From the NCBI GenBank assembly GCA_947178235.1, contig CAMWXQ010000044.1, positions 1 to 7,690 on the forward strand: 7,690 bases of DNA. Reading direction: 5' to 3'. A program made the position numbers and the translations under genes. Numbering within the stretch: position 1 is the stretch's first letter; every line of letters starts with the position of its first letter. The DNA is from an uncultured Muribaculaceae bacterium (GTDB lineage: Bacteria > Bacteroidota > Bacteroidia > Bacteroidales > Muribaculaceae). Below the pieces are notes generated by a model that saw only the letters and a list, made by a program, of their open reading frames with translations, was not told the DNA's origin and ran no database searches. Shown here piece by piece: positions 258 through 7,515 of the stretch.

Positions 258-535
258 ATGGCGAAGGTCATGGGTGCCCCGCAGGGGCACGACAGAGGAA
301 GCCCCAGTGTGGGCGGAGCGAAGCGGAGACCTCACTGGGGTCAACGGATCTAACCCAAACAATCTGCCTCGTTGAGGCTGTACCACACAGACGTAATACG
401 TATGTGCTGTGCAACCCCCACGGGGTTGACTTGGTACTATTATCGAGTCTCCCCAATGAGGCCTCCGCATAAGCTGCGGCCACATTGGGGTTTCTGATGT
501 TGTGCCCCTGCGGGGCATCTATGGCCGGAGGCCAT
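258..535. repeat. Composite inverted-repeat element with hairpin-rich arms, REP/BIME-like
   Basis: A left arm (258-340) and a right arm (451-535) are inverted copies of one module, matching at roughly 65 of 85 aligned positions by hand count. The core sequence TGCCCCGCAGGGGCAC is identical in both. Each arm holds three hairpins in mirror order: a short ATGGC/GNCAT hairpin (258-271; 521-535), a 7-bp stem GTGCCCC/GGGGCAC (274-290; 502-518, with one G-T closing pair) and a stem CCCCARTG/CAYTGGGG with a 20-30 base loop that is partly paired (302-340; 451-490). The arms flank a core at 341-450 that is also structured. The element fills the gap between two convergent genes, as REP/BIME elements often do in other bacteria. 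Bases that differ between the arms mostly keep pairing within their own hairpin (G/C to A/T at 307/335 versus 456/485), which suggests that structure is selected. Dispersal in the genome is inferred, since only one copy is in the window. Confidence 0.75.
366..437. repeat. Structured core of the element: hairpin plus three-way junction
   Basis: Between the inverted arms, GCCTC (366-370) pairs with GAGGC (374-378) around a 3-base loop. Directly after it, GTACCA (380-385) pairs with TGGTAC (432-437). This encloses two adjacent stems: CACAG (386-390) with CTGTG (407-411), and CAACCCC (412-418) with GGGGTTG (422-428). The stems abut with no unpaired base except ACT at 429-431, which is the geometry of a compact three-way junction. 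The loop of the first inner stem contains ACGTAATACGT, itself a small palindrome. All pairings are perfect. Whether the structure forms as RNA or as single-stranded DNA cannot be told from the sequence. Confidence 0.6.
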
Positions 536-3605: not shown

Positions 3606-3672
3606 AATAGTAGCAGTGTGCGGGTTTAGTGTGTAAGTCGTAGGTCCATTTTTGTTCAAAAGTGCCTCTCGA

Positions 3673-3709
3673 CCCGTCACACTCTCCGCCGTGGCGGGAG
3701 TGTGACGGG
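3673..3709 (-). terminator. Strong hairpin between ileS and the DksA-like gene
   Basis: A perfect 12-bp stem (3673-3684 with 3698-3709) is continued, after one bulged base at 3685, by CCGCC/GGCGG (3686-3690, 3693-3697). It lies 31 bases after the ileS stop. On the minus strand it is followed by TCGAGAGGCACTTTTG, so the T-run is short and displaced. It may be a leaky terminator or an RNA-processing or stability element that sets the ratio of ileS to downstream expression. A smaller ACAGG/CCTGT stem (3711-3722) lies just before it. I could not find a consensus promoter in 3606-3672, so at least some readthrough from ileS is likely. Confidence 0.55.
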
Positions 3710-3739
3710 CACAGGGGCCTGTGTATTGCGGGAGGTCCG

Positions 3740-6700
3740 TCACTCTGCCTTGCTGAGCGAGATGCGGACGGGGAGCTCGAAGTCATCCATGTCGAGGAGG
3801 GTGACGTCGGCGTCATCGGCGGGTGCGGGTAGCGTGTCGACGATTTCGAGCCCGGTGGCGAGCACCTGGGACGAAATGTAGTCGGAGAACTCGCGGATAG
3901 CCTCGTCGGCTGCCTCGGTCGACTTGAATGTGAGCGAGATGCGGTCGGTGATGTTGTAGTCACGCTCCTTGCGGGTGCGCTGGATGCGGTTTACGATGTC
4001 TCGGGCGATGCCTTCGCGTTCGAGCGAGGGATCGGCGGTGACGTCGAGGGCGATGGTCAGCGGACCGTCGTTGGCGACAAGCCACCCGGGGATATCCTCC
4101 GAGATGATGTCGACATCGGCGAGGTCGATGACAGCGGGGGTGCCGTTGACGTCGATTTCGATCGAACCCTCCTTTTCGAGGCGTATGGCGGCCTTGGTGT
4201 CGAGGGCCTGTACGGCAGCGGCCACGGCCTTCATGTTCTTGCCATGCTTCGGGCCGAGCTTCTTGAAGTCGGGCTTGACGCGCTTGACGATGACGCCGTC
4301 CTCATCGGTTACGATCTTGATCTCCTTGACGTTGATTTCGCTCTTCACGAGATCGGCGATGGCTTCGAGGGTGGCACGCTGGGTGTCGTCGTTCACGGGT
4401 ACCATGAGGGTACGCAGGGGTTGGCGAACCTTCATGTTGACCTTCCGGCGGAGTGCGAGGGCCATGGATGTGATGCTCTGAGCCATCTTCTGACGCGCTT
4501 CGAGCTCGGCGGCTTCGAGTGCGGGATCGAACTCAGGGAACTTGGCGAGGTGTACCGAACCTGCCTCCTCGCCGTTGAGATCGCGCCAGAGGCGGTCGGC
4601 GAAGAAGGGTGCGAAGGGTGCGGTGAGCAGGGCCAGTGTGCGCAGACAAGTGTAAAGTGTCTGATATGCGGCGAGCTTGTCCTGGGTCATCTCCCCGGCC
4701 CAGAAACGGCGGCGGTTGAGACGGACATACCAGTTGGAGAGGTTGTCACCCACGAACTCGGCGATGGCACGCGCGGCACGTGTGGGCTCGTAGTCGTCGA
4801 GCGACTCGTTGACCTCGCGCACGAGGGTGTTGAGCAGCGAGAGAATCCAACGGTCGATCTCGGGACGCTCGGCCAGGGGTACCTGCGGTGCCTCGGGGTC
4901 GAATCCGTCGACATTGGCGTAGAGGGCGAAGAAGCTGTAAGTGTTGTAGAGCGTGCCGAACAGCTTGCGCGAGGTTTCGAGCACACCCTTCGGGTCATAT
5001 TTGAGGTTGTCCCAGGGTGAGGAGTTGGCAATCATGTACCAGCGCACGGGATCGGCGCCGAACTCAGCAATCTGACCGAAGGGGTCGACGGTGTTGCCCT
5101 TGTGCTTCGACATCTTCTCGCCGTTCTTGTCGAGTACGAGGCCGTTGGAGACCACAGCCTTGTAGGCCACAGAGTCGAAGAGCATACCGGCGATGGCGTG
5201 GAGTGTGAAGAACCATCCGCGGGTCTGGTCGACACCCTCGGCGATGAAGTCGGCGGGGTAGACGGTGCGGTTGTCGAAAGCCTCCTTGTTCTCGAATGGA
5301 TAGTGTATCTGGGCATAGGGCATGGAGCCGGAATCGAACCACACGTCGATGAGGTCCTTCTCGCGGTGCATCGGCTTGCCCGAGGGGGAGAGGAGGACGA
5401 TGTCGTCGACATAGGGACGGTGCAGGTCGATCTTCTCGTAATTCTCCTTTGTATATACGCCGGGCTCGAACCCGAGGTCGCGGTAGGGGTTTGAGGTCAT
5501 CAGACCGGCCTCGACGGCGCGGTCAATCTCGTTGTAGAGCTGCTCGACCGAACGGATACAGAGCTCCTCGCGGGCATCCTCGGTGCGCCAGATCGGGAGG
5601 GGGGTACCCCAGTAGCGGCTGCGTGAGAGGTTCCAGTCCTGGAGATTTTCGAGCCACTTGCCGAATCGGCCCGAGCCTGTGGAAGCGGGTTTCCAGAGGA
5701 TACCCTCGTTGAGCTCCATGAGACGCTCGCGAACGGCGGTGGAGCGGATGAACCACGAGTCGAGGGGATAGTAGAGGACAGGCTTGTCGGTGCGCCAGCA
5801 GTGGGGATAGTTGTGGACATGCTTGGCGATGCTGAATGCCTCGCCGGCCTGCTTCATCTCCATGCAGAGGACGATGTTGAGGTCCTCGGCCTTTGCGGCG
5901 GCCTCCTCGTCATACTTGCCGCCGGGATTGAAGCGGGGGTCATATGCGTTCTTGACATAGTCCCCGGCGTGCTTCGAGTAGAGCTCGACGTCGACGCAAC
6001 GTTCTACGAACTCGGGAGCGAGCTTGTCGAGGGGATAATATTTGCCTTGCAGGTCAACCATCGGGCGTGTCTCGCCGCGGAGATTGATCATGAAGAGCGA
6101 GGGGATGCCGGCAGCCTTGGCTACCTTGGCGTCATCGGCACCGAAGGTGGGAGCGATATGCACGATGCCCGTACCGTCCTCGGTGGTCACATAGTCACCG
6201 CCGATGACACGGAAGGCCTCCTCGGAGATTTCGACGAAGCTGTCCCCTTCGGCCTTGAACATCTTCTCGGGATGGGCCTCGGCGTAGGCGGTAACGAAGG
6301 CGGGGGAGTTCTCGTCGACCTTCTCGACAGGCTTCACCCAGGGCATGAGCTGGGCATAGTGCATCCCGATGAGCTCAGAGCCCTTCCAAGAGCCGACGAT
6401 GCGGTAGGGGATGACCTTGTCCCCCTGCTTGTACTCCTCCATCGGCTTCTCGGCGCCTTCGGGCTTGAAGTAGCTCTTCATCAGCACCTCGGCGAGCACT
6501 ACGGTGATGGGTGCCCCGGTGTAGGGGTTGAATGTCTGCACGGCTACATAGTCAAACTTGGGGCCTACGCAGAGAGCTGTGTTCGAGGGGAGGGTCCAGG
6601 GGGTGGTGGTCCAAGCCATGAAGCAGGGTGTACCCCATGTAGCCATCTCAGGCTTCGGGTCGAGGATGCGGAAGAGTGCCGTGGCGGTCGTATCCTTCAC

Positions 6701-7312
6701 GTCGCGGTAGCATCCGGGCTGATTGAGCTCGTGCGAGCTGAGGCCGGTGCCCGCAGCGGGCGAATAGGGCTGGATGGTGTAGCCCTTGTAGAGGTAGCCC
6801 TTGTCATAGAGCTGTCCGAGGAGCCACCATACGGTCTCGATATAGCGGTTGTCATAGGTGATGTAGGCGTTGGGCATGTCGACCCAGTAGCCCATCTTGC
6901 GGGTGAGGTCCTCCCACTCGCCGGTGAACTTCATCACCTCCTTGCGGCAGGCTGCATTGTAGTCGCCGACCGAAATCTTGGTGCCGATGTCCTCCTTGGT
7001 GATGCCGAGGTTCTTCTCGACGCCGAGCTCTACGGGCAGACCGTGGGTGTCCCATCCGGCCTTGCGCTTGACCTGGAAACCCTTCATGGTCTTGTAGCGG
7101 CAGAAAATATCCTTTATGGTACGCGCGAGGACGTGGTGGATACCGGGTTTGCCGTTGGCCGAGGGGGGACCCTCGAAAAACACGAATGAGGGGCAGCCCT
7201 CGCGCTCGGTCATGGTACGCGCAAAGACATCTTCGGCATCCCAATCACCGAGGATACCGGCATTGATGGCGGGCAGATTCAGCCCTGTATATTCCTTGAA
7301 TTTCTTGGACAT
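3740..7312 (-). CDS. ileS: Isoleucine--tRNA ligase, type 2 with altered HIGH motif
   Basis: IleRS activates isoleucine with ATP and charges tRNA-Ile in the cytoplasm; it also hydrolyses mischarged Val-tRNA. The 1190 residues are much longer than E. coli IleRS (938). The class I catalytic domain carries GPPSANGKPGIHH at 48-60, so the HIGH position reads Gly57-Ile-His59-His60, and the second signature KMSKHKGN is at 733-740. The CP1 editing domain lies between, with WTTTPWTLPSN from 234 and GTGIVHIAPTFGADD at 380-394. The anticodon-binding helical domain includes NWYVRLNRRRFW from 860. The C-terminal part (after about 950) has no CxxC zinc finger and fits the DUF5915 region of type 2 (eukaryote-like) IleRS. 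The start at 7312 has AAGGA two bases upstream and fits the N-terminus of relatives. It has a consensus promoter at 7383-7414 and is the first gene of the block. Confidence 0.98.
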   Translation of the reverse strand: MSKKFKEYTGLNLPAINAGILGDWDAEDVFARTMTEREGCPSFVFFEGPPSANGKPGIHHVLARTIKDIFCRYKTMKGFQVKRKAGWDTHGLPVELGVEKNLGITKEDIGTKISVGDYNAACRKEVMKFTGEWEDLTRKMGYWVDMPNAYITYDNRYIETVWWLLGQLYDKGYLYKGYTIQPYSPAAGTGLSSHELNQPGCYRDVKDTTATALFRILDPKPEMATWGTPCFMAWTTTPWTLPSNTALCVGPKFDYVAVQTFNPYTGAPITVVLAEVLMKSYFKPEGAEKPMEEYKQGDKVIPYRIVGSWKGSELIGMHYAQLMPWVKPVEKVDENSPAFVTAYAEAHPEKMFKAEGDSFVEISEEAFRVIGGDYVTTEDGTGIVHIAPTFGADDAKVAKAAGIPSLFMINLRGETRPMVDLQGKYYPLDKLAPEFVERCVDVELYSKHAGDYVKNAYDPRFNPGGKYDEEAAAKAEDLNIVLCMEMKQAGEAFSIAKHVHNYPHCWRTDKPVLYYPLDSWFIRSTAVRERLMELNEGILWKPASTGSGRFGKWLENLQDWNLSRSRYWGTPLPIWRTEDAREELCIRSVEQLYNEIDRAVEAGLMTSNPYRDLGFEPGVYTKENYEKIDLHRPYVDDIVLLSPSGKPMHREKDLIDVWFDSGSMPYAQIHYPFENKEAFDNRTVYPADFIAEGVDQTRGWFFTLHAIAGMLFDSVAYKAVVSNGLVLDKNGEKMSKHKGNTVDPFGQIAEFGADPVRWYMIANSSPWDNLKYDPKGVLETSRKLFGTLYNTYSFFALYANVDGFDPEAPQVPLAERPEIDRWILSLLNTLVREVNESLDDYEPTRAARAIAEFVGDNLSNWYVRLNRRRFWAGEMTQDKLAAYQTLYTCLRTLALLTAPFAPFFADRLWRDLNGEEAGSVHLAKFPEFDPALEAAELEARQKMAQSITSMALALRRKVNMKVRQPLRTLMVPVNDDTQRATLEAIADLVKSEINVKEIKIVTDEDGVIVKRVKPDFKKLGPKHGKNMKAVAAAVQALDTKAAIRLEKEGSIEIDVNGTPAVIDLADVDIISEDIPGWLVANDGPLTIALDVTADPSLEREGIARDIVNRIQRTRKERDYNITDRISLTFKSTEAADEAIREFSDYISSQVLATGLEIVDTLPAPADDADVTLLDMDDFELPVRISLSKAE

Positions 7313-7473: not shown

Positions 7474-7515
7474 AAAGCATGGCTGCCGCGGACCGGTCCG
7501 CGGCAGCCATGCTTT
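7474..7515 (-). terminator. Perfect 42-bp palindromic intrinsic terminator
   Basis: Bases 7474-7494 and 7495-7515 are perfect reverse complements with no spacer (21-base arms centred on ACCGGT). On the minus strand the stem is followed by TTTTGTTTTT (7476-7467 region), an almost continuous T-run, so it terminates the minus-strand gene whose stop is at 7539-7541, about 24 bases upstream. On the plus strand only TTTATGG follows. It also insulates the ileS promoter from upstream transcription. Confidence 0.9.

Follow-up and report, generated by a model that had tools for sequence, protein, structure and literature searches.

The window, that is, the whole stretch of 7,690 nucleotides that we analyzed, comes from an uncultured Muribaculaceae bacterium and contains a large palindromic element close to one end (Table 1). 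To the left of the element is the end of a reading frame (2-199, + strand) with no match in Pfam, and to its right is a small gene (623-859, - strand) with a weak match to DUF6582, below the cut-off. The other neighbors in the window encode an OMP_b-brl protein, a DUF4296 protein, signal peptidase II, a DksA/TraR zinc-finger protein, and a 1190-aa frame (3740-7312), which we take to be isoleucyl-tRNA synthetase. There was no match to Rfam at the gathering score anywhere in the window, ARAGORN found no tRNA in it, and positions 250-545 had no match at E ≤ 1e-5 in plasmid and phage records. Two other inverted repeats lie near the 1190-aa frame. Upstream of it, at 7474-7515, is a perfect 21-bp inverted repeat with zero loop bases, which looks like the intrinsic terminator of the gene on its right. 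The other, at 3664-3718, lies in the gap that separates the 1190-aa frame from the zinc-finger gene; it is a 21-nt inverted repeat that is 81% complementary, with its halves 13 nt apart.

Table 1. Features of the palindromic element in the window.
Feature	Position	Strand	Basis
Complete two-armed element, family 1	258..535		14 head-to-head arm pairs found in the genome, this one included
HP1, left arm, outermost small hairpin, degenerate	258..271	+	sequence; helix 1 of the covariation test
HP2, left arm, small hairpin	275..289	+	helix 2 of the covariation test; position of the 16-mer
HP3, left arm, large GC-rich hairpin	302..340	+	helices 3 and 4 of the covariation test
HP4, core, small hairpin	366..378	+	sequence, fold, core alignment
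Middle core hairpin	384..411	+	sequence, fold; differs from copy to copy
HP5, core, small hairpin	412..428	+	sequence, fold, core alignment
HP3', right arm, large hairpin	451..490	-	arm profile matches, covariation test
HP2', right arm, small hairpin	503..517	-	covariation test, 16-mer position
HP1', right arm, outermost small hairpin	521..535	-	arm profile matches, covariation test

A preliminary description, made from the sequence of the window, had presented the element as two mirrored triple-hairpin modules around a structured core. The mirrored arms are there: 258-340 and 451-535 are inverted copies with 65 of 85 alignment columns matching, as had been reported, and the pair 266-319 / 473-526 (80% complementary) is the longest of the 47 inverted pairs that a repeat search found in the window. 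The 16-base segment that was said to be unchanged, TGCCCCGCAGGGGCAC, is at 275, and its reverse complement is at 502. The rest of the picture needed refinement. The core itself contributes small hairpins (for example, CAACCTCTGCGAGGTTG), and HP1 (consensus ATGGCCGAAGGCCAT, which is palindromic in itself) is missing or degenerate in several copies of the element and is its least constant part. HP2 has the consensus TGCCyCGcrGrGGCA, and HP3 is formed by CCCCAGTG...CACTGGGG, which enclose an inner stem. When 240-550 is folded as one RNA strand, the energy is -187 kcal/mol, versus a mean of -109.9 (sd 5.6) for dinucleotide shuffles (z = -13.7; 0 of 100 as low).

We searched for further copies in the host genome, which is a MAG of 1.70 Mb in 331 contigs (57.8% complete). 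Copies of this element, which we call family 1, are found in about twenty places. In the search with the whole element, same-orientation matches over most of its length have identities of 72-88%, which suggests that the copies are old. Most places match in the opposite orientation as well, because the element is palindromic. A profile of the arm, run on 20 of the host contigs, has 41 matches at E < 1e-3, and 28 of these form 14 two-armed copies, all of them head to head (on C1, C159, C165, C176, C259, C26, C33, C37, C42, C79, and C44, the contig of the window, and three on C27). The remaining 13 matches are to arms that stand alone, to fragments, or to arms truncated by contig ends. A covariance model built from 34 arms has at least 36 matches in the genome at E ≤ 1.1e-8, with 150 of the 833 first-look candidates scored. 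The prediction of a dispersed Bacteroidales analogue of BIME/REP elements thus passed the copy count that was proposed along with it, and the covariation and the Y1 gene described below agree with it as well.

The copies are mostly intergenic: by crude gene calls, 1 of the 14 two-armed copies overlaps a frame of more than 300 aa. The preliminary description had taken a convergent gap to be the favored place for such elements; by similarly crude calls of reading frames, the genes around the copies are convergent, tandem, and divergent, so such a gap is no general rule. Several copies are at contig ends, so they may explain some of the assembly breaks in MAGs of this kind. Two arms near contig ends, L044 (C259) 2788-2893 and L046 (C51) 61-166, have identical letters, and they may be one place that was assembled twice. 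On contig C166 (L049, 1335-1637), a two-armed element of another family, family 2, adjoins a family-1 arm that is truncated within HP3. The remainder of that arm is absent on the far side of the family-2 element, so this is a junction and not a clean insertion.

The hairpins of the arms covary. Our alignment includes 34 of the 41 arm matches (it excludes fragments and the truncated arm of L049, and arms lacking HP1 are trimmed near HP2). It holds 33 distinct arms and 26 pairs, which we compared with 500 shuffles. Standard pairs are found in 98.0% of cells, versus 93.5% in the shuffles (0 of 500 as high), and if the structures are shifted by 1-3 columns, only 36-52% of cells pair. Seven pairs changed on both sides, versus 3.6 in the shuffles (1 of 500 as high), and there were 39 double-change cells, versus 11.4 (0 of 500 as high). 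These compensatory changes between copies agree with the earlier remark that differences between the arms preserve the pairing within each hairpin. Further pair types were not above the shuffles in this test of 33 distinct arms (165 of 500). The covariation supports selection on the hairpins but does not prove it, because the arms are related to each other. Part of the signal may come from that relatedness or from quasi-palindrome repair.

REP elements are mobilized by Y1 transposase-like proteins, and the preliminary description had suggested looking for a Y1/RAYT gene. The host genome has matches to Pfam's Y1_Tnp in three places, on C27, C140, and C142. The gene on C27 is intact (147 aa; 8474-8917 of locus L041), and it has a complete family-1 copy on one side (8098-8374) and a half copy, running from the inner to the outer hairpin, on the other (8930-9067). 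Another complete copy is at 7679-7955 of the same contig. This arrangement of copies around a Y1 gene is typical of REP/RAYT systems. The gene on C142 is between inverted arms of a different family, which has 12 matches on seven contigs of the host genome, and the downstream arm begins at the base right after the stop codon. The gene on C140 is also between inverted arms; these had no match elsewhere in the 57.8%-complete assembly. The three proteins fall at three separate positions in the tree: what this assembly (58% complete) contains is three divergent genes and not a near-identical gene in multiple copies.

The expectation of a Y1 gene was right, then, but the enzyme is IS200-like and not a classical RAYT. 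All three host proteins (147-149 aa) have an H-x-H motif and a Y---Q--HH motif, and in an alignment of 20 proteins, H53, H55, Y113, Q117, H120, and H121 do not vary. Each of the three host proteins scores above the threshold of NCBIfam's IS200/IS605 model (the C27 protein with 56.5 bits, versus a cut-off of 55), and none of the three passes its model for REP-associated tyrosine transposases (REP_Tyr_transpos), which matches only the C140 protein, at 22.2 bits versus a cut-off of 80. The solved relatives that were found by sequence are of the IS200 type. We also modeled the L092 protein, which is 52% identical to the C27 protein, with AlphaFold2 (pLDDT 87.5, pTM 0.80; L092 is the same gene as L081). 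In a Foldseek search with this model, the best 29 rows were IS200/IS605-type transposases, led by that of ISDra2 (2xma, E = 2.5e-8), and the RAYT of E. coli (4er8) was a weaker match in row 30 (E = 7.7e-6). By structure comparison, the modeled fold is like that of the IS608 and ISDra2 TnpA proteins bound to hairpin DNA. In a tree of proteins with the motif and four IS200-type proteins, without class 2 proteins, the two groups are apart, with support of 98/91.

Judging from its sequence, the C27 enzyme resembles IS200 transposases and carries the motif that marks TnpAY1 subclass 1.2. By motif and length, it is a likely member of that subclass. Subclass 1.2 is described as having the Y---Q--HH motif, a median length of 148 aa, and a low copy number (Quentin et al. 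2018, PMC6006769), and its hosts are mostly Cyanobacteria and Bacteroidetes. Table 1 of that paper lists REP as "no" for this subclass, and a passage of its text says that the typical terminal structures of IS200 are generally absent. The automatic search for REPs, as outlined there, needed a GTAG or GTGG near the foot of the hairpin. In family 1, we found no GT[AG]G at the foot of the hairpin in any of 26 HP1, 29 HP2, and 34 HP3 arms; on the other strand, it is present in 0, 2, and 1 of 34 for HP1, HP2, and HP3.

We then asked how widespread the layout with a gene between arms is. With an alignment of five proteins, we found 68 loci in species genomes, all recorded as groups of Bacteroidales or Bacteroidetes except for L122 and L143 (Firmicutes) and one untyped bacterium. 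We looked for a repeat common to both 1-kb flanks (E < 1e-4) and used 183 positions from the same loci as controls. Four partial matches (L144, L145, L149, and L150) and six loci with a flank of under 150 bases (L099, L109, L114, L134, L137, and L142) were left out. Among the 58 testable loci, 45 have a repeat common to both flanks. Setting aside L143 (a 4-aa reading, with the repeat) and L147 (no motif and no repeat) leaves 56 loci with the motif, and 44 of these have a flank-shared repeat, versus 10 of the 183 control positions; the other 12 have none common to both flanks. The five query genes all have arms, so this sample may lean towards armed genes. In 21 loci from a Pfam search, which were hand-chosen (all but C27 before we inspected the flanks), 19 have a shared flank repeat. 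Of the two loci without one, L071 has no HH, and at L080 there is a large inverted repeat on the upstream side alone. Five loci are in both samples (L063/L126, L073/L097, L079/L088, L081/L092, and L082/L089).

The repeats are usually inverted (at 40 of 44 loci, the matches include an inverted one) and close to the gene, with a median end 52 nt before the start codon and a median beginning 11.5 nt after the stop codon. The upstream repeats fold strongly, with a median z of -4.5 (28 of 43 below -3), versus -0.1 for controls (3 of 129). (L143 was left out of these statistics, and one of the 44 repeats was too short to fold.) Small exact hairpins are present on both sides at 38 of 55 loci, versus 7 of 241 controls. 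We folded the flanks of 13 chosen loci, and in several, a large GC-rich hairpin between two small ones is followed by the gene and then by the mirror image. For example, L117, L124, L139, L130, and G014 share this plan with unrelated letters; other loci are less regular. In all four further genomes that we searched, the flank repeat recurs elsewhere: there were 50 alignments in G023 (many covering only a low-complexity part of the query), 21 in G036 (many of only about 20 nt), 35 in G022, and 10 in the Salinivirgaceae genome G061. Four control loci with IS200-type genes (of the subclass 1.1 type) had no shared flank repeat at E < 1e-4, and at three loci that have the motif but belong to other families of the order, such a repeat was present once and absent twice (L057, in the same set, gave no parsed gene).

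Two kinds of loci in these samples stand out for other reasons. At L081 (G036:C21), the Y1 gene is between direct repeats of 130 nt (1160-1289 and 1961-2090) that are 100% identical, which may be a sign of recent duplication or conversion. L122 and L143, which carry Y1 relatives, are recorded as MAGs of Pseudoflavonifractor and Lachnoclostridium. The L122 protein groups among Bacteroidales proteins in the tree, and these two would be either mislabeled records or cases of transfer.

The letters of the element differ between sister species. When we compared the whole element to 60 other genomes, G023, from the same genus, was the only one to match, with three weak matches. These belong to a sister family with the same layout and other letters (63 alignments in G023). 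The one Y1 gene that we found in G023 (L063, on its contig C401) is flanked by another palindrome family, at 593-939 and 1441-1482. Either the enzyme of the sister family was lost or is unassembled, or the link between enzyme and repeats is looser than we thought.

The comparison of occupied and empty sites that the preliminary description put forward did not turn up an empty site. We queried 27 genomes of the genus with the right-hand gene; 25 matched, including the host's own, and we read 26 loci. The left neighbor is beside the right-hand gene at the host's own locus and at none of the 25 loci of 24 other genomes, so no empty site was found because the left neighbor is not syntenic. Target duplications were absent from the 8 of 14 copies that we tested: the longest shared sequence averages 3.0 nt, versus 2.9 nt for reshuffled pairs. 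Target duplication is not expected from the chemistry of Y1 transposases, and it would be expected of a classical DDE-type MITE. Outside the arms, any motif is weak (the best column has 0.9 bits, from 21 distinct outer flanks).

How does family 1 compare to known systems? It resembles the REP, BIME, and REPIN elements of class 2 TnpA-REP (RAYT) enzymes in its short palindromes, which form head-to-head pairs and are scattered among intergenic gaps, in having copies on either side of a single-copy Y1 gene, and in its species-specific repeats. It differs by its lack of GT[AG]G at the foot of the hairpins, by its three-hairpin arm, by the size of the element (near 280 bp), and by being seen in tens of copies instead of hundreds; also, class 2 RAYTs have the motif Y---NP, while the family-1 enzyme has Y---Q--HH. 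With subclass 1.2, as characterized in the portions of PMC6006769 that concern it, the genes share the motif, the length of about 148 aa, the low copy number, and the presence in Bacteroidetes, but that subclass is described without REPs, and the genes here have flanking hairpin arms. IS200/IS605 elements such as IS608 and ISDra2 have the nearest solved fold, the NCBIfam model, and hairpin-bearing ends in common with our system, which differs from them in its long inverted multi-hairpin arms, its many gene-less copies, and its single-copy, divergent genes. The BrickBuilt MITE of Porphyromonas gingivalis is likewise a gene-less element with inverted repeats that is scattered over a Bacteroidales genome, but it is described (PMC4596501) as containing a minisatellite, and it is by this description that we set it apart from family 1.

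REPs have been reported for class 2 enzymes of Bacteroidetes, in subclasses 2.4 and 2.6 (in the sections of PMC6006769 on that class), and an excerpt of PMC3733652 also reports CGTC repeats in Bacteroidetes, so REPs in this phylum are not new in themselves. In searches of the open-licence PMC literature, we recognized no paper that links REP-type repeats to subclass 1.2 or to Muribaculaceae, and a search for terms in the RepRanger paper (PMC12306157) found neither RAYT nor transposase. Elements of this kind are known (BIME/REPIN); the enzyme partner, the design of the arms, and the pattern across Bacteroidales are undescribed in the literature that we searched.

The stretch 258-535 is a copy of a dispersed palindromic family that also surrounds the 147-aa Y1 gene, and we think it quite likely that it is a gene-less BIME/REPIN-like element that would be cut and copied or moved as single-stranded DNA by that enzyme. 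The IS200-like transposase is the likely partner of the element. The Y1 enzymes of IS200/IS605 and TnpA-REP act on hairpins in single-stranded DNA, and the cut site is chosen via a short guide 5' of the hairpin, according to the parts of Corneloup et al. 2021 (PMC8266576) that deal with them. By analogy with IS200/IS605 and with TnpA-REP of E. coli, we infer that the enzyme recognizes the hairpins of the arms in DNA that is single-stranded and moves the element in that form. It would nick beside the hairpins with its tyrosine, and the arm-core-arm unit would then be joined elsewhere, between genes. Given the anatomy, the arms probably serve both as binding sites and as ends, and a unit without a gene is likely to be moved in trans. 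Several such enzymes may coexist in one genome, with a separate arm family for each, and the letters of the arms would turn over while the layout of small, large GC-rich, and small hairpins stays.

Other explanations need to be weighed against this. That a chance cluster of gene-end hairpins arose at one place is barely credible, with repeated copies in the same order and orientation and a fold z of -13.7. The elements might instead be immobile and be kept as RNA, as two-way terminators or as 3'-end stabilizers, and their association with the transposase would be a relic of how they arose. Copies that are mostly intergenic (1 of 14 overlapping a frame of >300 aa), identities of 72-88% that suggest age, and strong folding with conserved stems would all suit this idea. 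We nevertheless find it improbable: it leaves unexplained why, at 44 of 56 loci, arms closely flank the gene on either side, why the arms differ from one gene to the next, and why the letters are wholly different in sister species, and the mixed orientation of the neighboring genes also speaks against it.

It is possible, though we would not bet on it, that an autonomous IS200-like element (arm-tnpA-arm) has these arms as its termini, so that the gene-less copies are MITEs formed by internal deletion, with no REP-type domestication. The plain order of arm, gene, and inverted arm at C142 and other loci fits this, as do the IS200-like motif, NCBIfam call, and fold of the enzyme. But the gene is not multi-copy (the three Y1 genes are at three places in the tree) while the gene-less copies are many, and the C27 gene has a complete gene-less copy on one side and a half copy on the other. 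This explanation and the BIME/REPIN-like reading that we prefer are compatible and do not exclude each other.

More broadly, and with some hesitation, we lean towards the view that subclass 1.2 arose from IS200 and makes up a second lineage of REP transposases. Most of its genes in Bacteroidales would be between inverted small-large-small arms without a GTAG guide, and each would have bred its own dispersed, fast-changing, gene-less palindromes. These would form a large BIME-like class that was passed over by surveys for single hairpins with GTAG.

REP/RAYT systems are best known from Proteobacteria. A REP-like system with an enzyme near IS200, its own arm architecture, and families that differ between the species of one genus would be an independent case, in common gut bacteria, of a transposase that came to maintain short repeats. 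The statement that subclass 1.2 has no REP becomes a testable claim, and the matched pairs of enzymes and arms are supplied for binding and cleavage assays.
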